Position numbers and translations under genes: made by a program. Shown one piece after another: positions 34,681 through 46,055 of a stretch of 53,847 nucleotides of DNA. How positions within the stretch are numbered: position 1 is the stretch's first letter; every line of letters begins with the position of its first letter. This DNA comes from Cyclobacteriaceae bacterium (GTDB taxonomy: Bacteria; Bacteroidota; Bacteroidia; Cytophagales; Cyclobacteriaceae), in assembly GCA_019638285.1 (NCBI GenBank), contig JAHBUB010000023.1, forward strand, positions 1 through 53,847, read 5' to 3'. Under the pieces are notes generated by a model. It worked only from the letters and a program-made list of their open reading frames with translations, was not told where the DNA came from and made no database searches.

Positions 34681-35475
34681 TTAACCATACATCTCATTTA
34701 GTAACCCTGCCAATCTAACTCCTGCCTCCAGTAATCTTTTGTAAACATTATCTATATTTTTATTGAAATATCCATATCCCAAGTTTCCATCACCAATTTG
34801 ATAAACTTGCTTGCGTAAATCCATCGATTCTTTTGCCCAGGTAAAGATTGATGCCTTTTGAAGTTTCTCTACTTCATATTTTTTTAACTTATCCAATGAT
34901 AGCGCCAATTCCCCATAACTGAGTTTGGTGGCATCAATCATATTACTATCCCACACCCTATGCAAGTTGGATGCTTTTCCAAACCATTTTACCTTGGTTT
35001 CGTTACCCCCTTTGTCATTACCCGCACCCACATGGAGTGGTTGATGCATATCTCCTACCAAATGAATCAATAGTTTAATATGCTCCCTCTCTTTTGCTTT
35101 CGTTAATTGTTTTGAACGCAATTCTTCCACCAGGCGCTCAATCACTTCAAGGATGTCGCCATGCGGGTTCTTTTCTGACTGAGCATACGTATTTCCATCA
35201 GGAATAGTCACCCAATGCCAGTCCGCCATATAACGGTATCTTCTATTGAATCTTACTTCATCCATCCATGTACTCGCCATGACCAAGGACTCCCCGTTCA
35301 TTATTTCATTAAGTTTCTCTTTTGTCTTTGAGTTAAGGTGGTCTTCTGCAACCATCCCAATAACCCGATGTCCAGTTTGGCCCCATGCGCCAGCAGGCTG
35401 AGAAATAAACATTAATAGGAGCGTAGCAGAAAACACCCCCCCTACCCAATTAATAAATGGAATAAGCCTGCGCAT
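34681..35475 (-). CDS. S1/P1-type nuclease
   Basis: 264 residues. The signal peptide ends at PAGA-W31, giving a mature N-terminal Trp, which in this family coordinates zinc through its amino group; W31-GQTGH36 is the expected start. Other zinc ligands appear in MASTWMDEVR, ADWHWVTIP, HLVGDMHQPLHVG and NLHRVWDSNM. Exported three-zinc nucleases of this type degrade single-stranded DNA and RNA and remove 3' phosphates. Probably nutrient or phosphate scavenging. Monocistronic, divergent from the peptide-conjugation operon. Confidence 0.95.
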   Translation of the reverse strand: MRRLIPFINWVGGVFSATLLLMFISQPAGAWGQTGHRVIGMVAEDHLNSKTKEKLNEIMNGESLVMASTWMDEVRFNRRYRYMADWHWVTIPDGNTYAQSEKNPHGDILEVIERLVEELRSKQLTKAKEREHIKLLIHLVGDMHQPLHVGAGNDKGGNETKVKWFGKASNLHRVWDSNMIDATKLSYGELALSLDKLKKYEVEKLQKASIFTWAKESMDLRKQVYQIGDGNLGYGYFNKNIDNVYKRLLEAGVRLAGLLNEMYG

Positions 35476-35502
35476 TGTTCGGAATATTTTCCGCTAATTT
35501 TG
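35475..35502 (+). promoter_or_regulatory. promoter of the C39/ATP-grasp operon
   Basis: TTG at 35475-35477, a 17-base spacer, then TAATTTTG at 35495-35502, an exact -7 match. This is the best complete Bacteroidota-type promoter in the window. It lies 47 bases before the first ATG of the operon and overlaps the start of the divergent nuclease gene. Confidence 0.6.
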
Positions 35503-35549: not shown

Positions 35550-36263
35550 ATGCCCAATCGTCAGGCACTTTTTCTTAATTTCGATATTGAAGCGCAACCC
35601 GATGAAGTAACGTGCGGCCCCACTTGCCTGCATGCTCTTTACCAACATTATGACAACGACATATCCCTAAAGCAGGTTATTCAGGAGGTAAGGCAAATAA
35701 AGACCGGGGGTACACTTGCCGTAATGTTGGGTGAACATGCATTGCAAAGAGGATACAAGGCCCACATTTATACCTACAATCTGAATGTCTTTGATCCTAC
35801 CTGGTTTCAATACTCTTCTGGCAAAATCATCGAATTGTTAAAGAAACAAATGCGCTATAAGAAGACCAAGCGCAAATTACTGACCGAGTGTGATGCCTAT
35901 ATTAAGTTCTTGGAGGCTGGAGGAAAAGTAAAATACTCAGAACTCAATAAGGATTTGATCAAAGGATATTTACAAAAATCCATTCCTATCCTTACCGGAT
36001 TAAGTGCAACCTATTTATATGGAACACCCAGGGAAATTGGAGCCACTAATAAATACCATAGCATAAAAGGAGAACCCGTTGGGCACTTCGTAGTTATCAA
36101 TGGATTCGATGGAAAAGGGGATTATGTCTATTTGGCTGATCCCTTGAATCCAAATCCATTAAAGAGTCAATATTACAAGGTTAAGTTTGATAGACTTATA
36201 AATAGTATATTACTAGGCATAATGACCTACGATGCCAATTTATTAATTATTGAACCCAAGTAA
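35550..36263 (+). CDS. papain-fold C39-like peptidase or transferase
   Basis: 237 residues, cytoplasmic by lack of a signal. The papain-fold active site is visible: oxyanion Q16, nucleophile C22 six residues later in QPDEVTCGPTC, H179 in GEPVGHFVVINGFD and D197 in YLADPLNPN. The layout matches C39-type peptidases (Peptidase_C39_2). It lacks transport or membrane domains. Its stop is two bases from the ATP-grasp gene. As I recall, the RLAN-type ATP-grasp enzymes next door usually neighbour papain-like peptidases fused to a GNAT acetyltransferase; here no GNAT portion is present. Likely role: processing or transferring a peptide made by the adjacent ligases. Confidence 0.8.
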   Translation: MPNRQALFLNFDIEAQPDEVTCGPTCLHALYQHYDNDISLKQVIQEVRQIKTGGTLAVMLGEHALQRGYKAHIYTYNLNVFDPTWFQYSSGKIIELLKKQMRYKKTKRKLLTECDAYIKFLEAGGKVKYSELNKDLIKGYLQKSIPILTGLSATYLYGTPREIGATNKYHSIKGEPVGHFVVINGFDGKGDYVYLADPLNPNPLKSQYYKVKFDRLINSILLGIMTYDANLLIIEPK

Positions 36264-36265
36264 CC

Positions 36266-37714
36266 ATGCCCAAACTTATTGTTGCCGAAAAACCTGATAA
36301 TTGGGAGCTCAGTCTCAAGGACGTGGAAGTAATTACACCTAATACTTACATTACATCGGAAGTATATCAAAACGTACGCAACATCAAAGTACTCAACCTT
36401 TGTAAATCCTATCAGTACCAAAGCGAAGGGTATTATGTATCTCTTTTGGCCGAGGCACGAGGGCACAAAGTGCTTCCGGGGGTTTCCACCATTCAGAATT
36501 TTCGGTTTCCCTCTATCATCAGATATGATTCTCAGGATTTTGACGAATTGATTCAAAGTACGTTTAAAAATATTTCAGGTGATCGGATTGAGTTCAACGT
36601 GTATTTTGGTTCTACCAGCAATGAGCATCTCAATAAGCTTGGAAAACAATTGTTTCAATTGGTTCAAGCCCCATTCCTCAGAGCTGTTTTTTCTAAAAAA
36701 ACAAAATGGGTGCTTCAAAGCTTACGCCCTCCCAGTTTAGGAGAGATGCTTCCAGAGGATAAGCCTTTGTTTATGAGTGCGCTTGAGAAATATTTCTCAA
36801 GAAAGAGAGATTACCGTCACGATAGGAAGAAATATGATCTTGCAATTCTTATCAATCCTGAAGATGATAATCCTCCTTCCAATGATCGCGCTTTGAAAAA
36901 ATTTTACAAAGCAGCCATGGAAACAGGTTTTAACGTAGAGTTTATCACTAAAAATGACTTTGACCAGCTCATTCAATATGATGCGCTTTTTATTAGAGAA
37001 ACTACCAATGTCAATCACCATTCATTTCGTTTCGCAAAAAAAGCCGCCTCATTGGGTTTGGTAGTTATCGATGATCCTGTTTCCATTCTAAAATGTACCA
37101 ACAAGGTATACCTCCACGAGCTATTAACAGCCAATAAAATACTCACTCCAAAAGCCAATGTAATTACTGAGGATAATTGTGATGCCCTTACTGATAAAAT
37201 GGAGTTTCCATTCATTTTAAAACAACCTGATGGGGCCTTTTCTAAAGGGGTACATAAAATCACTGACCTGGACCAATTTAAGAAAATTCGAAAAAGTATG
37301 TTTGAAAAATCGGATCTACTAATTGCCCAGGAATTTCTACCCACTCCATTCGATTGGCGAGTAGGCATTATAGATGGTCAGGTGATCTATGTGTGCAAAT
37401 ACTTTATGGCCTCCCAACATTGGCAAATAGTGAATTGGAGTGCCAAAAAAGAGGATTTAAAAGAAGGTTTGTTTGAATCCTTCTCTGTAGACCAGGCTCC
37501 TTCTGGACTTTTAAAGACCGCACTTAAAGCAACCAGCCTTATAGGCAGAGGACTTTATGGTGTAGATATGAAAGAGGTAGATGGAAAATTTTACGTGATT
37601 GAGATCAATGACAATCCAAATATTGATGCTGGGGTAGAAGACAAAGCATTAAAAGAAAAATTATACACTACAATAATGGAAGTATTTTTAAATCGCATTA
37701 AAGCAGAAAAATGA
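36266..37714 (+). CDS. RimK-like ATP-grasp ligase with RLAN-type N-terminal domain
   Basis: 482 residues. The N-terminal half (about 1-190) resembles the RLAN domain that precedes certain RimK-like ATP-grasps (LNLCKSYQYQSEGYYVSLLA; EARGHKVLPGVSTIQNFRFP). The C-terminal half (about 265-480) is an ATP-grasp fold: IDDPVSILKCTNKVYLHELL, the nucleotide-binding FPFILKQPDGAFSKGVHKI, AQEFLPTPFDWRVGIIDGQV, and the metal-binding GVDMKEVDGKFYVIEINDNP. Enzymes of this fold join a carboxylate to an amine through an acyl phosphate, as RimK adds glutamates. It overlaps the next gene by ATGA. Together with a GCS2 ligase and two hydrolases it forms a compact peptide-conjugation operon; the substrate is unknown. 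Confidence 0.88.
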   Translation: MPKLIVAEKPDNWELSLKDVEVITPNTYITSEVYQNVRNIKVLNLCKSYQYQSEGYYVSLLAEARGHKVLPGVSTIQNFRFPSIIRYDSQDFDELIQSTFKNISGDRIEFNVYFGSTSNEHLNKLGKQLFQLVQAPFLRAVFSKKTKWVLQSLRPPSLGEMLPEDKPLFMSALEKYFSRKRDYRHDRKKYDLAILINPEDDNPPSNDRALKKFYKAAMETGFNVEFITKNDFDQLIQYDALFIRETTNVNHHSFRFAKKAASLGLVVIDDPVSILKCTNKVYLHELLTANKILTPKANVITEDNCDALTDKMEFPFILKQPDGAFSKGVHKITDLDQFKKIRKSMFEKSDLLIAQEFLPTPFDWRVGIIDGQVIYVCKYFMASQHWQIVNWSAKKEDLKEGLFESFSVDQAPSGLLKTALKATSLIGRGLYGVDMKEVDGKFYVIEINDNPNIDAGVEDKALKEKLYTTIMEVFLNRIKAEK

Positions 37715-38955
37715 CGCACCCATCCCGCATCCATCTTTTTCAGGGCTACGGAATAGAACTGGAATACATGTTAGTAGACAAAGATACGCTTGCCGTAAAA
37801 TCTGTTACCGATGAGTTATTAAAACACGAGTTGGGAGAATACGGGAGTGATTTTGAAAACGGCATCGTTACCTGGTCCAACGAATTGGTACTGCACGTTG
37901 TGGAAATAAAATCCACAAATCCAGAATCCAATTTCAACGCATTGGGAAATGCCTTTGCGGAAAATGTAAAAAGGATAAATGCAAATCTGGACAGATGGAA
38001 TGCCATGCTAATGCCAAGTGCTGCGCATCCATTTATGAATCCGATGGAAGAAACCAAGTTGTGGCCTCACGACAACAACGAAGTCTATCAGATTTATGAT
38101 AAAATATTCAATTCCAAAGGTCACGGATGGTCTAACCTGCAGAGTACCCACCTCAATTTGCCTTTCTATGATGATGAGGAGTTTGCCAAACTTCATGCCG
38201 CAGTGAGAATAGTATTGCCTATTCTTCCAGCGTTGTGCGCTTCCTCACCGATTTTGGATGGAAAACTTACAGGAATGGTGGACACCCGATTAAAATATTA
38301 TAAAACAAACCAGGCTCGAATACCATCCATTACGGGTAAAGTAATTCCAGAAGCCATATTTTCTAAGCGAAATTATCTCAACTCCATTTATGAAAAGATA
38401 AAAACAGACATAGCCCCTTTTGATCCAAACAAAGTGCTTAATCCCATCTGGGTAAATTCCCGAGGCGCCATTCCTCGTTTTGATCGAGGATCCATCGAAA
38501 TCAGATTAATGGATATTCAGGAGTGCCCTACTGCGGATATGGCAATTATCAGCCTGGTGATCGAAACCATTAAAGCTTTTGTAGGCGAAAAATTCATTAG
38601 CCTCGATGATCAAATGAAAATTAAGACCGAACCAATGGCAGGGTTGTTTGAAAAGTGCATAGTTACAGGGCAGAAAACAGAAGTAACCAACCCTGAATTT
38701 CTTACTGCATTTGGTATACAAAACAACACCCTAACAGCCATTGAAGTTTGGAGAACTGTCATGGATAACCTTGTCAAGTCTGGAAATTCTGCATTGGAAA
38801 AATGGAAACCAGAACTTTCAGTTATTCTGAATGAAGGAACGCTGTCTGATAGAATCATAAGGTCTTTAGAAGAGGATAATACAGAAGAATCAATAAAGAG
38901 TGTATATCGCAGATTGTGTGGGTGTCTTGAACAAGACAAGATGTTTATCCCTTAG
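37711..38955 (+). CDS. GCS2-type carboxylate-amine ligase
   Basis: 414 residues of the glutamine-synthetase-like/GCS2 superfamily. Metal and nucleotide motifs are GYGIELEYMLVD near the N-terminus, STHLNLPFYDDEEF in the middle and DRGSIEIRLMDIQECPTAD near residue 270. The family makes gamma-glutamyl or similar amide bonds using ATP. It shares an ATGA overlap with the ATP-grasp gene, so both ligases are made in equal amounts and probably act in sequence. It is not a standard glutathione enzyme by context: no glutathione synthetase of GshB type is present. Confidence 0.88.
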   Translation: MTHPSRIHLFQGYGIELEYMLVDKDTLAVKSVTDELLKHELGEYGSDFENGIVTWSNELVLHVVEIKSTNPESNFNALGNAFAENVKRINANLDRWNAMLMPSAAHPFMNPMEETKLWPHDNNEVYQIYDKIFNSKGHGWSNLQSTHLNLPFYDDEEFAKLHAAVRIVLPILPALCASSPILDGKLTGMVDTRLKYYKTNQARIPSITGKVIPEAIFSKRNYLNSIYEKIKTDIAPFDPNKVLNPIWVNSRGAIPRFDRGSIEIRLMDIQECPTADMAIISLVIETIKAFVGEKFISLDDQMKIKTEPMAGLFEKCIVTGQKTEVTNPEFLTAFGIQNNTLTAIEVWRTVMDNLVKSGNSALEKWKPELSVILNEGTLSDRIIRSLEEDNTEESIKSVYRRLCGCLEQDKMFIP

Positions 38956-38966
38956 TAGTCTCTGCT

Positions 38967-39647
38967 ATGCACTACTCAATAATCATCACTTGCGAGCATG
39001 CCGGAAACACAGTTCCTGAAAAATACAAATCATTATTTAATGATTTAGAAGATGTATTAAATTCTCATGAGGGTTGGGATCCAGGGGCCTGGGAGGTTGC
39101 TACTTACCTCGGAAATCATTTCCAGATAGTGCCGATAGGTTGTCACACCACCCGGTTGCTCATTGAAGCAAATCGCGCTTTGGATAGCAGTCAGCTCTTC
39201 TCACGTTACTCCATTTTATTAAGCGATGAAGAAAAGAAAAATCTCATTGATGAAATCTATAATCCTTACAGGCAACTTGTTAAACTAAAAATTGAACAAT
39301 TACAGCAACCCGTCCTCCATCTATCCATACATTCCTTTACTCCTATTTATTATGGAACAAAAAGAAATGTTGAACTGGGGCTGCTCTTTGATCCGGACAG
39401 GAGATTAGAATCGCATTTTTGTCAAGAATTTCAAGATGCACTGAAACTTAGTCTACCCGAGACAAATGTGCGGTTTAACGAACCCTATTTAGGCATCGAT
39501 GATGGACTCACCAGTTATTTAAGAACCCAATACAGCAATAGCCAATATGCAGGTGTAGAAATTGAGATCAATCAGAAATTCATCTCTGATATGAAGAAAA
39601 TAAAGGTATCCCTAGCCGATGGGCTTAAAAAAGTTCTTTTTCCTTAA
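38967..39647 (+). CDS. N-formylglutamate amidohydrolase family protein
   Basis: 226 residues. Family motifs in order: ITCEHAGNTVP, the HEGWDPGAWEVA segment, the TRLLIEANRALDS strand, LHLSIHSFTPIYYG and AGVEIEINQKF. The fold is zinc-dependent, related to M14 carboxypeptidases, and hydrolyses N-acyl amino acids such as N-formylglutamate. It lies 12 bases after the GCS2-type gene and no histidine-degradation genes are nearby, so a role in trimming or recycling the conjugate made by this operon is more likely than Hut catabolism (inference). Confidence 0.88.
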   Translation: MHYSIIITCEHAGNTVPEKYKSLFNDLEDVLNSHEGWDPGAWEVATYLGNHFQIVPIGCHTTRLLIEANRALDSSQLFSRYSILLSDEEKKNLIDEIYNPYRQLVKLKIEQLQQPVLHLSIHSFTPIYYGTKRNVELGLLFDPDRRLESHFCQEFQDALKLSLPETNVRFNEPYLGIDDGLTSYLRTQYSNSQYAGVEIEINQKFISDMKKIKVSLADGLKKVLFP

Positions 39648-39710: not shown

Positions 39711-40607
39711 ATGCAACGTCTTCGGCTTTGGATAAGAAATATATTCGGATTCTCACGGAGTGAGGCCAATGGGCTTTTAGTTTTACTCCCTACCATGCTC
39801 TTAATACTATTTTCATATCCGATTTACCGCACCTTCTTCTACCATCCTGAAATTTCTAATATCAATGAACAGGCTAAAATAGATAGTCTTATCGCTCAAT
39901 GGAATTTTAACCCGGTACAAGACATAGAAAGTAGTGTTACTACCTTGTTTCCATTTGATCCCAACACTGCCACTCGTAAAGACTTTGATTCACTGGGAAT
40001 ACCTCCCCATTTGTCCGATCGAATTATAAACTATCGCTCCAAAGGTGGAAGTTTCAGAAAACCAAACGACCTCCTTAAAATCTATAGCATGGACTCCGAT
40101 CTATTTGAACAGCTTTACCCATTCATTAATATCGCTTCACCAAAGGAAAGGTCAAACGGACGTAACATTACCAAGAAATCAAAAAATAATATAAGTGAGC
40201 CCCTTGCACTGCAAGATTTAAATTTAGCCGATACCTCACAATTAAAACGAATCAAAGGAATAGGCACGGTTCTGGCCAGCAGGATAGTAAAGTACAGAGA
40301 CGCATTAGGTGGTTTTATAGATCAAAATCAGTTAAAAGAAGTTTATGGCTTAGATACCGCGGTAATAAATAGGGTCAAGACTAAATTCTACATCGACTCA
40401 AAATTCAAGCCTGATCAGCTGAATATCAATACAGTCAATGAATCTGGCCTATCCAATCACCCATATATTCGGTCAAAAATCGCAAAATCTATTGTGGCGT
40501 ATCGTTTTCAGCATGGAAGTTTCATCGAGATTGCCGACCTTTTGAAAATTGATTTGATCGACCAAACTGTATTTGATCGCATAAGACCTTATTTGAGTAT
40601 AGAGTAA
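39711..40607 (+). CDS. membrane-anchored helix-hairpin-helix protein
   Basis: 298 residues. A single membrane segment at about 22-40 (GLLVLLPTMLLILFSYPIY) follows a short basic N-terminus. Outside the anchor are three ComEA-type HhH units: FDPNTATRKDFDSLGIPPHL, LNLADTSQLKRIKGIGTVLA, and LNINTVNESGLSNHPYIRSK. HhH repeats bind the DNA backbone without sequence specificity, and ComEA-like proteins take part in DNA uptake. The gene ends three bases before the large SF1 helicase gene, suggesting a paired function in handling DNA. No ComEC partner is in the window. Confidence 0.88.
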   Translation: MQRLRLWIRNIFGFSRSEANGLLVLLPTMLLILFSYPIYRTFFYHPEISNINEQAKIDSLIAQWNFNPVQDIESSVTTLFPFDPNTATRKDFDSLGIPPHLSDRIINYRSKGGSFRKPNDLLKIYSMDSDLFEQLYPFINIASPKERSNGRNITKKSKNNISEPLALQDLNLADTSQLKRIKGIGTVLASRIVKYRDALGGFIDQNQLKEVYGLDTAVINRVKTKFYIDSKFKPDQLNINTVNESGLSNHPYIRSKIAKSIVAYRFQHGSFIEIADLLKIDLIDQTVFDRIRPYLSIE

Positions 40608-40610
40608 TAG

Positions 40611-43600
40611 ATGGCACGTAAAGAACACCCCATATTAAGTTCGTATCTGCGAAAGCTCACCAATCTTTCAGGAAACAGTCGCTCTATTTATCTACCCAGG
40701 ACAAATTCAGAACAATTCATAGACCTACACACACTGAGTCAACTTAATGGGGAGAAATCGTTCTCTATCATTGAGGCCCTTATTGCAGGGAAAGGTAAAT
40801 TACTCTGCCCCCTGATTGACACACGAATGAAGGTGAGCAATGAGGCAAGCAAAAGAATAAAGCGCATTCAGCGATTGGATCAATTGATTTTTGAGGAGCG
40901 TGGCTCAAAAGATTTACATATTGGTTGGCCTTTTGCACGAGGTAAATTCATGGATGGAACCAAGGTACGAGCTCCCTTACTCTTTATTCCGGTCGAAATA
41001 AAATCGGAAAACAATAATTGGATAATCCACCAACGGAAAGATGCAGATATTACGTTCAACAAATCTTTCCTTCTCGCCTATTCTTTCTATAATAAGATTC
41101 AGGTAGAAGATTTTATAATGGAAGAAACTTTTGAAGAGATGGACGTTGACAGCACGGTCTTTCGAACTACACTTTATCAGCTACTGCAAAAGAGTTCTAT
41201 CGATATTCATTTTAACCCAGACAATTACAGGGATGAATTAGATTTTTTTAAACACTTCACCCAACCCGAGTTTGATGAACTTCACGGCAATGGAGAACTA
41301 AAGCTATTTCCCGAGGCAGTTTTGGGTATTTTTCCGCAAGCCGGTTCTTACCTGGTTCCTGATTATGTTGAGTTGATTGAGCATCGTAAAATTGGAAGTC
41401 TGGAAGAGTTCTTTATGAGTAAGAATCAGACAGAACAACAATCATTACTCTTCTCTAACTTCATTCAGCTCGTAAAGGAGGAAAAAATATTTACGGGATT
41501 TCCCATGGACGCATGGCAAGAAAATATTCTCAAGGCTACCAAAATTGGTTACTCTGTTGTAGTACAAGGCCCTCCGGGTACCGGTAAATCACAGTTGATC
41601 TGTAATCTCATATCAGATGCCATCGCTACTGGAAAAAAGGTATTGGTCGTATGTCAAAAAAGAGCGGCCCTTGATGTAGTGTATGCCCGTCTTAAAGAGT
41701 TACAACTCTCAGATTTTTTGGCTTTAGTTCATGATTTTAAAAATGACAGAAAAGAAATTTATGCAAAAGGAGCTCGACAAATAGATCGTGTGGAGGAATA
41801 CAGATTGAAGAACAATAGCCTGGACGCCATACAGCTCAATCGAAAGTTTCTACAAGTAAGCCATCGCATCGACCAAATAGTTGAAGAACTTGACGAGTTC
41901 AAGAGGGCACTTTTTAATGATTCAGAATGTGGGGTAAGTGTAAAAGAGCTTTATCTAAGATCTGACCCCACAGCTACCTTCATTAACCTAAAACAAGAGT
42001 ACCAGAATTTTCCTATAAACAGCATAGATACTTTCTACACTCGCCTAAAGTCATATGCCTACTATGCCCAAACCTTTAGTAAAGATGATTATCTATGGCG
42101 CGATAGAAAGTCGTTTGTCGGCTTAGGCATAAATGATCTAAAGGAAATAGAAAAAATTCTTATTGAACTTCCCCTATTGCTCAACGATCTCTTCATTCAA
42201 TTAGAGACACAGATAGGTGCAAAACTAGATTGGAAACAATGTGAAGAGTTGCTAGAGCGAGAAGAAGAGATAAACGAAATGATGCGGCAACTGGATAACG
42301 AAAATACTTTTTCGTTTTTCCGGGAAATGATTGGAAAAGACGATGACGAAACCAGTACGCTTTGGTTGGCTAACGTTGAACGTCTGATACTATCCTGTTT
42401 TGAAGAAGAGGGACTGGAATCATCGCTTCCTTCCAATCAATTAGGCGCATTGCAACAGGCACTCCATAGAAGTATGAAGGCGCGAAGAAGCCTAATCGGG
42501 CTGATTCGCTGGGAGCTCTTTTCCAAAGATAAGTTTTTAATAAAGCGTGCGTTGGTTGGAAATGCACTTGAAAACAATCGTGAGGGATTTAAAAAATTAG
42601 AAGCCAAACTTGACAGAAGACTCAACCTCGAACACAACCTGTCGAAACTGAAGACAAAATCGTGGCTCAAGAATATACCTGAAAAAATTGATGAAAATGA
42701 ATTGAAGCGCTGGTTCAACAGTCAAAAAAATGCAATAAAAGCCAAATTGATTTTTAGATCCATAAGGAGCATAAGCAATTTTATTGACCTCTCCACATTG
42801 AGTCACTTAGAAATGGAATTACGAATAAAAAGACTATTTCAAAAGCTTGCTTCACTACCTGTTATAAAAATCAAATGGAATGCTTACCTGAGCCAAAACC
42901 AAATTAATTATCTTACTCAACAGCCTGAAAAAAGTGACAGCTTACGGATCATCCTTCTCAATGATTTCGATGCACTCTGTGAATTTGATAATATTAAAGA
43001 AGGGCTCACACCAGATGAAAGAAACAGCATCTCCAAGTTACATGAGGCCCATACAGACTGGCAGCCGGAAGCCATTCAAAAAACATTTATCAACAGCCTT
43101 GTTCTGGCTTGGATTGATCACATGGAAACCAAGTTTCCTATTTTAAGAATGGTGTCATCCGGTAAACTTCCCCTACTGGAATCGGAGTTGCAGGATCTTA
43201 TCGTTGAAAAACAAAAAATCAGCAATGAGATTATTTTACTACGAGCGAGAGAGCGAGTTGCCGATGACCTCGAATTTAACAGGCTCAACAACAGAGTAAC
43301 ATATAGAGATCTCCATCATCAACTTACCAAGAAGAAAAGAATTTGGCCAATCCGAAAATTAATATCTGAATTTGAAAGTGAGACCTTTAGATTACTTCCA
43401 TGCTGGCTTGCTTCGCCAGAATCAGTATCAGCAATATTTCCATTAAAGGAAATGTTTGATCTCGTGATTTTTGATGAAGCTTCTCAATGTTTTACAGAGC
43501 GCGGTATCCCTGCCATGTACCGCGGCAAGCAATCCATCGTTGCTGGTGATGATAAACAATTAAAACCCAGTGATTTATACCGTATCCGTTGGCAAGATGA

Positions 43601-44627
43601 AACTGAAGATGATCCAGATCTTGAAGTAGATTCATTGTTGGCACTTTCGAGCCGGTATCTTATGCAGCTTCCACTGCGCAGTCACTATAGAAGCAAATCG
43701 TTGGAGTTAATTGATTTCTCCAATCAACATTTTTATGACGGAAAGTTGATTCTTTTACCAGATTCGGATCACATCAACCAAACTGAACCACCTGTTGCCT
43801 ATCATAAAGTGGATGGAATATGGGAAGACAACACCAATGAAGTTGAAGCGGATGAAATAGTGTCCATGGTTTTAGGAATGGTGAAGTCCAATCCGGATAA
43901 GGAAATAGGTATAGTCTGCTTCAATGCGCCCCAGCAAATGCTCATTCTGGATTTGATCGAGACAAATTTCAGTGCGCACAATATTCAACTTCCAGAAACA
44001 TTAATTGTGAAAAATATAGAAAATGTTCAGGGAGACGAGAAGGACATTATCATTTTCTCTATAGGATATGCACCCGACAAAAGGGGGAAACTGCATTTCA
44101 ATTTTGGGAGTTTGAGTATAGCGGGTGGTGAAAACAGATTGAATGTGGCCATTACTAGAGCAAGAGAAAAGATTATTGTCGTTACCAGCATTTTTCCAGA
44201 ACAGCTTCAGGTGGATGAAACAAAAAATGATGGTCCGAAGCTGCTAAAAAAATATCTTCAATATATTCAGGAAACTGCCAATGGTCAATTCAAACCATTT
44301 GTCAACGTCCATGCAAATACAAAAACAAGTTGGTATCTGAAAGATATTATTGAATCATGGGGAACCGAGAAGTTCCCTGGCAAACAATTTTTGAAAGATG
44401 CGCTTCCATTCGCTGATGTCTCAGCGCACATGGAAAATAATAAAGTAGGCCTCATTCTCACCGATGATGAATTGTACCGACAAAACCCTTCTGTGAAAGA
44501 TCTTCATGCCTCTATAATCAATCTATTTGAACAAAAAAAATGGAAGCACTTAAGAACATACAGCAGAAACTACTGGCAAGATCATGAAAAATTTTTCAAT
44601 GAAGTAGCAAAGTTTGTTACCCTATAA
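40611..44627 (+). CDS. DUF4011-type SF1 helicase with C-terminal Vsr-like domain
   Basis: 1338 residues. The N-terminal DUF4011-like region (about 1-250) includes HIGWPFARGKF and VRAPLLFIPVEI. The SF1 (UPF1-like) motor has Walker A GPPGTGKS (320-327), a long helical insertion (about 440-840), Walker B FDEASQ (D955-E956), motif III GDDKQL (979-984), SHYRSKS, NVQGDEKDIIIFS and NVAITRARE. The final 95 residues (from about 1240) resemble the Vsr/DUF559 nuclease tail of large DUF4011 helicases, but the usual IECDG strand reads ILTDD, so one catalytic acid seems lost. Such helicase-Vsr proteins include the antiviral Hhe family. It is transcribed with the HhH protein. Confidence 0.85.
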   Translation: MARKEHPILSSYLRKLTNLSGNSRSIYLPRTNSEQFIDLHTLSQLNGEKSFSIIEALIAGKGKLLCPLIDTRMKVSNEASKRIKRIQRLDQLIFEERGSKDLHIGWPFARGKFMDGTKVRAPLLFIPVEIKSENNNWIIHQRKDADITFNKSFLLAYSFYNKIQVEDFIMEETFEEMDVDSTVFRTTLYQLLQKSSIDIHFNPDNYRDELDFFKHFTQPEFDELHGNGELKLFPEAVLGIFPQAGSYLVPDYVELIEHRKIGSLEEFFMSKNQTEQQSLLFSNFIQLVKEEKIFTGFPMDAWQENILKATKIGYSVVVQGPPGTGKSQLICNLISDAIATGKKVLVVCQKRAALDVVYARLKELQLSDFLALVHDFKNDRKEIYAKGARQIDRVEEYRLKNNSLDAIQLNRKFLQVSHRIDQIVEELDEFKRALFNDSECGVSVKELYLRSDPTATFINLKQEYQNFPINSIDTFYTRLKSYAYYAQTFSKDDYLWRDRKSFVGLGINDLKEIEKILIELPLLLNDLFIQLETQIGAKLDWKQCEELLEREEEINEMMRQLDNENTFSFFREMIGKDDDETSTLWLANVERLILSCFEEEGLESSLPSNQLGALQQALHRSMKARRSLIGLIRWELFSKDKFLIKRALVGNALENNREGFKKLEAKLDRRLNLEHNLSKLKTKSWLKNIPEKIDENELKRWFNSQKNAIKAKLIFRSIRSISNFIDLSTLSHLEMELRIKRLFQKLASLPVIKIKWNAYLSQNQINYLTQQPEKSDSLRIILLNDFDALCEFDNIKEGLTPDERNSISKLHEAHTDWQPEAIQKTFINSLVLAWIDHMETKFPILRMVSSGKLPLLESELQDLIVEKQKISNEIILLRARERVADDLEFNRLNNRVTYRDLHHQLTKKKRIWPIRKLISEFESETFRLLPCWLASPESVSAIFPLKEMFDLVIFDEASQCFTERGIPAMYRGKQSIVAGDDKQLKPSDLYRIRWQDETEDDPDLEVDSLLALSSRYLMQLPLRSHYRSKSLELIDFSNQHFYDGKLILLPDSDHINQTEPPVAYHKVDGIWEDNTNEVEADEIVSMVLGMVKSNPDKEIGIVCFNAPQQMLILDLIETNFSAHNIQLPETLIVKNIENVQGDEKDIIIFSIGYAPDKRGKLHFNFGSLSIAGGENRLNVAITRAREKIIVVTSIFPEQLQVDETKNDGPKLLKKYLQYIQETANGQFKPFVNVHANTKTSWYLKDIIESWGTEKFPGKQFLKDALPFADVSAHMENNKVGLILTDDELYRQNPSVKDLHASIINLFEQKKWKHLRTYSRNYWQDHEKFFNEVAKFVTL

Positions 44628-44633
44628 ACTAAG

Positions 44634-46055
44634 TTACTTTCGGTAGTCCAGTACTGGCGGCCTATCACCAATCAACGCTTCATATTTAAAACCTTCTGTT
44701 TTAACTCTAAATTCTTTCCATGACTCTGTAAGAAGGTTTGGATTTGAAAATAGATCGATTGCGGTGAGTGCCATAGACTTTGCGGCTATTATCATTCCTT
44801 TTGTTCCAATAGTGGTGCCCCCAGCTGCAACAGCCTGCCAACTGTGTGCTGCAGTACCGGGTACCCAAGTAGCCGCAGACATACCTACAGTGGGAACGAC
44901 CCAGCTTACATCACCCACATCTGTGGAGGCTGTACCCGCCCTAAGCTGGTATTCTGCCACTTCTTGTGTCGAACTTAAAGGAGGAATTTTACCTGTAAAA
45001 GTTTTTTGGATCTCTGTCCCAAAGGCTCTTTCATCATCTGTCATCGTATAGCCACCCACTTCTTTAAGATTGGCATACATCGCCTTGGCCAAGGTTTCAT
45101 TAGGAAGTAAATCATGAACACCGCCTGTTATTTCAATCTCCACTTTGGTATCCGTACCCAATGCTGCTCCTTTGGCCGCATTCACTATCCTTTCCCACAC
45201 ATCCTTCACTTCGGAACGATCCGGGTGACGAACGTAGTAATACACTTCAGCAAACGCTGGCACAACATTGGGCGCCTCTCCTCCTTTCGTGATCACATAA
45301 TGAATTCTTGTTTCCTGAGTAACGTGTTCACGCATCATGTTTACCATGGCGTCCATTGCCTCCACACCGTCCAGTGCAGACCTGCCACGATGGGGAGCTG
45401 CGGCTGCATGAGAAGCCACACCATAAAATCTGAATTTACCTGTTTTATTTGCTAAAGAAGTTCCGGGGCTGGCACTATTTCCGGCTCCTGGGTGCCAGTT
45501 GATAACGGCATCCACATCTTTAAATAATCCTTCACGAACCATATATACTTTCCCGGAACCACCTTCTTCAGCTGGAGTGCCATAAAATCTAATAGTTCCT
45601 TGTTTCTTATTCGCAATCAACCAATCCTTCGCAGCAATTGCTGCTGCTGTCGATGCAGTGCCAAACAGATGATGGCCACAGGCGTGACCTGCTACCTGGC
45701 CCTCAATTATTTTTTTTTCAGGAACTGCTTCCTGGGCAAGTCCAGGCAAAGCATCAAACTCTCCAAGTATTGCAATTACTGGCTTCCCTTGGCCATAGCT
45801 TGCAATAAAAGCTGTTGGCATTCCTCCAACCCCTTTCTCTACTTTAAATCCAGCCTTAGCCAACGTCTCCTGCAACAAAGTGGAACTTTGCATCTCCTGA
45901 AATCCTACTTCTGCATAGTTCCAGATTTGTCCTGCTATGGCAGAATACTCTTCACTCTTTGAGTCAATTGCCTGAATCACTTCTTTCTTAGATTTTTGGG
46001 CCATTGTTGACAAAGACAACATGATCAGTAATAGAATCAGAATGATATTCTTCAT
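44634..46055 (-). CDS. M20-family amidohydrolase (AbgB-like), exported
   Basis: 473 residues with signal peptide (KNIILILLLIMLSLSTMAQ). M20D-type metallo-hydrolase: metal-binding GHACGHHLFG (about 124-133), catalytic Glu in PAEEGGSGK, NWHPGAGNSAS, and the dimerisation domain with GVASHAAAAPHRGRSALDG. The closest architecture I know is AbgB, the p-aminobenzoyl-glutamate hydrolase subunit, though no AbgA partner is adjacent. It removes acyl or aroyl groups from amino acids. It is convergent with the helicase gene, six bases apart. M20 peptidases are said to neighbour RLAN ligases in other genomes, so a link to the upstream operon is possible but not shown. Confidence 0.9.
   Translation of the reverse strand: MKNIILILLLIMLSLSTMAQKSKKEVIQAIDSKSEEYSAIAGQIWNYAEVGFQEMQSSTLLQETLAKAGFKVEKGVGGMPTAFIASYGQGKPVIAILGEFDALPGLAQEAVPEKKIIEGQVAGHACGHHLFGTASTAAAIAAKDWLIANKKQGTIRFYGTPAEEGGSGKVYMVREGLFKDVDAVINWHPGAGNSASPGTSLANKTGKFRFYGVASHAAAAPHRGRSALDGVEAMDAMVNMMREHVTQETRIHYVITKGGEAPNVVPAFAEVYYYVRHPDRSEVKDVWERIVNAAKGAALGTDTKVEIEITGGVHDLLPNETLAKAMYANLKEVGGYTMTDDERAFGTEIQKTFTGKIPPLSSTQEVAEYQLRAGTASTDVGDVSWVVPTVGMSAATWVPGTAAHSWQAVAAGGTTIGTKGMIIAAKSMALTAIDLFSNPNLLTESWKEFRVKTEGFKYEALIGDRPPVLDYRK

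Follow-up and report, generated by a model that had tools for sequence, protein, structure and literature searches.

We describe a four-gene operon in a 53,847-nucleotide stretch of DNA from a Cyclobacteriaceae bacterium (assembly GCA_019638285.1, contig JAHBUB010000023.1; hereafter the window), which encodes a C39-like papain-fold hydrolase, an ATP-grasp amide ligase with an RLAN domain, a ligase of the GCS2 family and a hydrolase of the FGase family. The arrangement of these genes is more than chance, recurring in many phyla with conserved core residues, and in the loci that we sampled GCS2 and a GNAT acetyltransferase exclude each other. We tentatively read the operon as a cytoplasmic, non-ribosomal pathway that would make and recycle a short N-capped peptide. 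A set of ligases and hydrolases so conserved from Bacteroidota to Omnitrophota most likely makes an unrecognized metabolite or protein mark, and the alternation of GNAT with GCS2 offers a handle on its chemistry.

A conserved set of two ligases and two hydrolases

The features of the operon are as follows:

35475..35502, + strand: promoter-like string TTG-N17-TAATTTTG, read by eye
35550..36263, + strand: C39-like papain-fold cysteine hydrolase, 237 amino acids, no transporter part (Pfam match)
36266..37714, + strand: RLAN-RimK ATP-grasp amide ligase, 482 amino acids (Pfam match)
36341..36775, + strand: RLAN domain (PF14401), codons 26-170, with the GYYxSLLAEARGH motif inside
36821..37711, + strand: RimK/LysX-like ATP-grasp part, codons about 186-482
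37711..38955, + strand: GCS2-family carboxylate-amine ligase, 414 amino acids (Pfam match)
38967..39647, + strand: FGase-family (N-formylglutamate amidohydrolase-like) hydrolase, 226 amino acids (Pfam match)

The open reading frames (ORFs) bear out the original prediction of four genes spaced by 2, -4 and 11 bases, all of them intact and on the + strand. The predicted promoter is also present in the sequence, with TTG at 35475-35477 abutting the start codon of a divergent gene (34681-35475), a 17-base spacer and TAATTTTG at 35495-35502, its reading as a promoter being one made by eye. No obvious signal peptide was seen by eye at the starts of the four proteins, and the set is therefore taken as cytoplasmic.

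Each protein scored above its Pfam cut-offs, confirming that two ligase families and two hydrolase families share one operon-like run. The first protein matched Peptidase_C39_2 (42.9 bits, cut-off 24) and Peptidase C39 (32 bits, cut-off 22), the second RLAN (149.3 bits, cut-off 25) and RimK (36 bits, cut-off 21), the third GCS2 (PF04107; 84.8 bits, cut-off 21) and the fourth FGase (PF05013; 76.2 bits, cut-off 28.9), with a profile match of the last to 2odf at 1.6e-37. The FGase protein had no NCBIfam match at E 0.1, to HutG-type N-formylglutamate amidohydrolase or otherwise. With 218.8 bits, a second PF05013 gene elsewhere in the genome far outscored the operon copy (73 bits), which is thus not the main FGase-family gene of this genome. 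The solved structures closest to the ATP-grasp part are LysX/ArgX (VIA-align), and structural and profile comparison together place it nearest LysX/ArgX and RimK; VIA-align covered this part, and no fold is claimed for the RLAN domain (residues 1-185) outside it.

Core residues are strongly conserved in three of the families. Gln16, Cys22, His179 and Asp197 of the C39 protein, the putative active-site residues, are invariant both in 40 non-redundant rows and in 49 rows of aligned sequence. Six residues of the RLAN-RimK protein that are presumably catalytic (K280, K319, D434, E446, N448, N450) are invariant in 51 rows, invariant or at least 90% conserved in 20 rows and at least 93% conserved in 52 non-redundant rows, and E16, E18, E65, H138, N142 and R251 of GCS2 are invariant in 33 rows and at least 93% conserved in 58 non-redundant rows.

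RLAN was found in 26 of 58 genomes of a set of relatives and in 44 of 395 genomes of the phylum (43 above cut-off), with the window's own genome in both. We compared 151 RLAN loci, comprising the window, 25 loci from relatives, 40 from the phylum (the new loci from the 44 matching genomes, excluding the own genome, G415, G211 and G425), 5 from plasmid records (out of 11 matches) and 80 from named genomes (the best 80 of 590 matches, a subset that leans to the window's relatives); four loci are duplicates, leaving 147 unique ones. C39, GCS2 and FGase were counted if they lay within 3.5 kilobases (kb) of RLAN on the same strand. All three were present at 65 of the 151 loci, in support of the original prediction, for which a gene order kept in distant genomes had been named as a check, while C39 and GCS2 occurred without FGase despite room for it at 35, and with the FGase position off the contig at 8. 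Five loci had GCS2 and FGase without C39 and four had GCS2 alone; 15 carried GNAT-RLAN fusions without C39, GCS2 or FGase, six had GNAT in a separate frame and four had no recognized partner. The other nine were two with C39 only, two with C39 and both downstream positions off the contig, two with GCS2 and FGase and the C39 position off the contig, and three others. Among the 147 unique loci, GCS2 was present at 117, C39 at 108 and all three partners at 62. Among the 80 named loci, 42 had all three partners, spanning at least 11 named phyla plus one further bacterium, when partner matches were accepted anywhere in the locus at E 1e-6 (one locus being included through a partial FGase).

Median gaps were 3 bases between C39 and RLAN (108 loci), -4 between RLAN and GCS2 (117 loci) and -14 between GCS2 and FGase (69 loci); because each frame was started at its earliest potential start codon, these values exaggerate the overlap to some degree. 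When distances among 59 loci were compiled for each of the four proteins, the matrices correlated at r 0.62-0.82, whereas shuffled data reached 0.13 at most; for distant pairs the correlation was only 0.25-0.52. These values, which include the effect of shared host descent, are consistent with genes that mostly move as a group, FGase being the more loosely attached.

Individual loci depart from this layout in several ways. A 9-kb record labeled a Legionella adelaidensis plasmid (NZ_LR134436.1) has consecutive RLAN, GCS2 and FGase genes together with fur and dapF but lacks C39, and resembles a circularized chromosome fragment. A Pseudomonas aeruginosa plasmid locus (L124, 7902-9491) has a lone RLAN, with C39, GCS2, FGase and GNAT not found within 8 kb. 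At a high-GC locus (L083, 7270-9989) a frameshift or sequencing error interrupts both the RLAN frame and the GCS2 frame, and at L155 (9705-10967) a 420-amino-acid FGase frame has an extra C-terminal part weakly matching the HD domain (PF13328; 20.9 bits, cut-off 27.2; E 0.00033), a possible fusion.

GNAT in the place of GCS2

GCS2 was found at 121 of the 151 loci and GNAT, at E-values under 1e-15, at 21, with zero overlap. The GNAT profile was trained on the 15 fusions and L125, whose matches follow by construction; weaker matches at four GCS2 loci (L153, L177, L042, L204) were treated as unrelated acetyltransferases. With Pfam, GNAT and RLAN were above their cut-offs in all 15 fusions, and a GNAT domain was also found at L125, L126, L127, L168, L173 and L182, the assignment being unsure at L127, where it is on the opposite strand, and at L173, where it lies 2.3 kb upstream with intervening frames. 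The GNAT part is nearest RimI (L125 88.2 bits, cut-off 86.4; L113 64.7, below it).

The exclusion extends beyond the loci. GCS2 of the operon type was found nowhere in 18 GNAT-type genomes and 2 plasmid records, while 5 positive-control genomes matched. None of the 11 GNAT-fusion genomes searched had C39, nor did 4 genomes that retain RLAN, GCS2 and FGase; at L189 and L148, where the locus holds C39 and RLAN only, GCS2 is present elsewhere in the genome. On an unrooted FastTree phylogeny of RLAN with long branches, built from 145 of the 147 unique loci (without L050 and L083), the state changed between GCS2 and GNAT three times, or twice without L127 and L173. Weighing against a perfect rule, four RLAN genomes (L164, L191, L193, L206) have no GCS2, the GNAT search in these covering the locus.

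The original prediction had treated the missing GNAT as an oddity of this operon. GNAT is indeed absent from its four proteins by Pfam, yet across the loci read this is the rule for the GCS2 type. The GNAT-papain fusions that it had described as neighbors of RLAN do exist: DUF3335 adjoins RLAN in Azospirillum, Tistrella and a Rhodocyclaceae genome. It was found in 2 of 48 genomes searched, neither of the GCS2 type and one (G469) barely above cut-off, and the window C39 protein does not reach this family (PF11814; 15.9 bits, cut-off 25). According to a 2023 review, which cites the 2009 work of Iyer and colleagues, fusion to GNAT is common among papain-like domains of the DUF3335 family (PMC10318531).

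A possible capped peptide and competing explanations

Since GCS2 takes the place of GNAT, both types are most simply read alike, as pathways of N-capping and then of growth at the carboxyl end; the substrates, order of steps, product and use that follow are those we infer. GCS2 would activate a carboxylate and join it to the amine of an amino acid, thereby capping it; the simplest candidate for this carboxylate is the gamma-carboxylate of glutamate. RLAN-RimK would then activate a carboxylate of the capped product and add a second amino acid, most simply glutamate by analogy with RimK and LysX. FGase-type enzymes hydrolyze N-acyl-glutamate, which would fit removal of a glutamate added by the RimK-like enzyme; FGase, as an N-acyl-glutamate amidohydrolase type, and C39, which might cut the cap or the chain, would cut the product back for recycling or maturation, so that the operon as a whole would build and trim.

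In the sister type, GNAT would presumably add an acetyl cap, as Ngg does. Ngg attaches an acetyl group to one glutamine and couples that residue to another, giving N-acetyl-Gln-Gln, and the operon for the osmoprotectant NAGGN includes a peptidase gene (PMC8070244). By family, the GNAT-RLAN fusions likewise combine N-capping and peptide-bond formation, with the same two kinds of domain as Ngg on one chain, and such a chain may hold the whole synthetic pathway. They differ from Ngg in that the GNAT part of L125 reached 36.2 bits against a cut-off of 569, and the window operon differs in having GCS2 and no GNAT; no Ngg model was among the 25 of 26 NCBIfam matches listed for its RLAN protein. It is possible, if doubtful, that such undescribed intracellular capped peptides are widespread, gamma-glutamyl in the GCS2 type and acetyl in the GNAT type, with an RLAN-RimK ligase common to both types building them in many phyla and FGase and C39 recycling them.

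The main rival to this peptide pathway is that the operon reversibly modifies a cellular protein, since the substrate of RimK is a ribosomal protein and those of RimI and LysX are likewise proteins. GNAT or GCS2 would cap an amine, RLAN-RimK would add a C-terminal glutamate as RimK does to S6 (RpsF), and C39 and FGase would erase the mark. We consider this explanation rather unlikely, even though the nearest relatives of the ATP-grasp and GNAT parts given above lend it weight, as does a gene of the DUF155 (RMND1/Sif2) family, which is linked to mitochondrial translation, beside some RLAN loci. The window's own genome also has a separate run (contig C1; L208, 336-2751) of a 142-amino-acid retropepsin-like frame, RimB-like by its motif, a true RimK and an AstE/aspartoacylase-like hydrolase, a ligase-and-eraser layout that resembles the window operon. 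In the RimB-RimK system, the glutamate that RimK attaches to RpsF is removed again by RimB, which likewise sets a RimK-fold ligase beside a reversing hydrolase (PMC12239564); it differs in having no RLAN, GCS2 or C39 and in drawing its hydrolases from other families. Against protein modification, no target gene is generally kept beside the operon, although a universal target would not need to be, and the GNAT-fused RLAN loci lack C39 and FGase in genomes where the searches found no such C39, so these erasers are not essential.

Three further explanations would assign the operon to known kinds of pathway. The GCS, ATP-grasp and papain folds also meet in glutathione and phytochelatin synthesis, and one could take GCS2 as GshA, RLAN as GshB and C39 as a phytochelatin-synthase-like enzyme, yielding a gamma-Glu-Cys-type thiol. 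This strikes us as improbable. The window GCS2 reached none of nine GshA/YbdK NCBIfam models (the best scores being 51.1 bits against a cut-off of 371 and 46.8 against 176.4), the likeness of C39 to phytochelatin synthase is one of fold only, with no Pfam match at E 0.01, and GNAT, which can replace GCS2, would not make a gamma-glutamyl thiol. GshB was above cut-off in 5 of 19 RLAN genomes (18 GCS2-type and one GNAT-type), all five of them GCS2-type, and there the operon is therefore not just the route to glutathione; in two others, full-length GshB matches scored 200 and 220 bits and fell short of the cut-off. A plain GshA with a distant GshB, the outcome named beforehand as speaking against the original prediction, is ruled out for the window's own genome, which has one RLAN and one GCS2 match: its single GSH-S_ATP match is RimK (371.1 bits, cut-off 331), and its best GshB match (70.8 bits, cut-off 299.05) is that same RimK.

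C39 peptidases and ATP-grasps are also found in graspetide-like clusters, and the ATP-grasp and GCS2 enzymes could act on a ribosomal peptide of this or a similar kind that C39 then cleaves, a prospect that we regard as very remote. The original prediction had seen no precursor gene, and on the coding strand within 500 bases on each side none of 922 short frames near the 147 loci recurred beyond close relatives, save for one low-complexity match between two loci (L121 and L171). The recurrent frames sit in flanks or gaps of close relatives, and most are taken to lie inside neighboring genes. Precursors that are very short, on the opposite strand or unlinked would escape such a search. There is, moreover, no universal transporter neighbor, and C39 is absent at some loci and genomes. 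Equally slim is the chance that RLAN-RimK is a LysX-like ligase of an amino-group carrier protein pathway. LysX/ArgX with LysW offers the closest solved fold to the ATP-grasp part, but LysW was not found in 28 of 30 RLAN genomes, the window's own, with 0 matches, being among them; that candidate was accordingly rejected. A carrier from a family other than LysW is possible.

Neighboring genes and earlier gene sets

An exported M20 hydrolase 5 kb away had been suggested as a further partner. The gene exists (44634-46055, - strand; ORF and Pfam match, export signal judged by eye), but a direct search placed it near RLAN at only 5 of 147 unique loci, all of the window's genus, with 50 of the 147 holding at least 8.4 kb of downstream sequence, and its role as a regular partner is not supported. 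Clustering put this M20 family near RLAN at 4 of the 147 loci, and a different M20 cluster near 5 loci, 4 of which are Pontibacter.

Links among RLAN, papain-like/GNAT and GCS2 proteins were reportedly drawn in 2009 by Iyer, Abhiman, Burroughs and Aravind, and there is a Pfam note on RLAN neighborhoods. Their gene sets reportedly share with ours the RLAN-RimK ligase with papain-like, GCS2 and GNAT partners; ours appear to differ in that a fourth gene, for FGase, is often present, that GNAT and GCS2 are mutually exclusive across the searched loci and genomes, and that M20 is no regular partner. The spread across phyla and the evidence against M20, GshB and LysW likewise appear to be additions to that account, and no study of this four-gene set was among the literature matches listed.

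Other genes recur near RLAN. DUF155 (RMND1/Sif2-Sif3 family, identified by comparing the L028 member with Pfam) lies near RLAN at 21 of the 147 unique loci; at 19 of these it is upstream on the same strand, often as the gene immediately ahead of C39 (e.g. L030 7912-8778, L043 11001-11786, L150 12350-13174). These loci belong to the window's genus and to other families, with one gammaproteobacterial locus each way (L150, L173). DUF155 is not beside the window operon, and it is a possible extra part of the system. An S1/P1 nuclease recurred at 28 loci, an HHH protein at 19, an ABC-type ATPase, assigned by sequence, at 15 and a DUF4011 helicase-like protein at 14; DUF155 alone among these recurrent neighbors often abuts C39 on the same strand. 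In the window, the S1/P1 nuclease gene (34681-35475) runs divergently to the operon, which is followed by HHH-repeat genes and helicase-like genes of the DUF4011/AAA kind (39711-44627); the recurrences of all three are mostly in close relatives.

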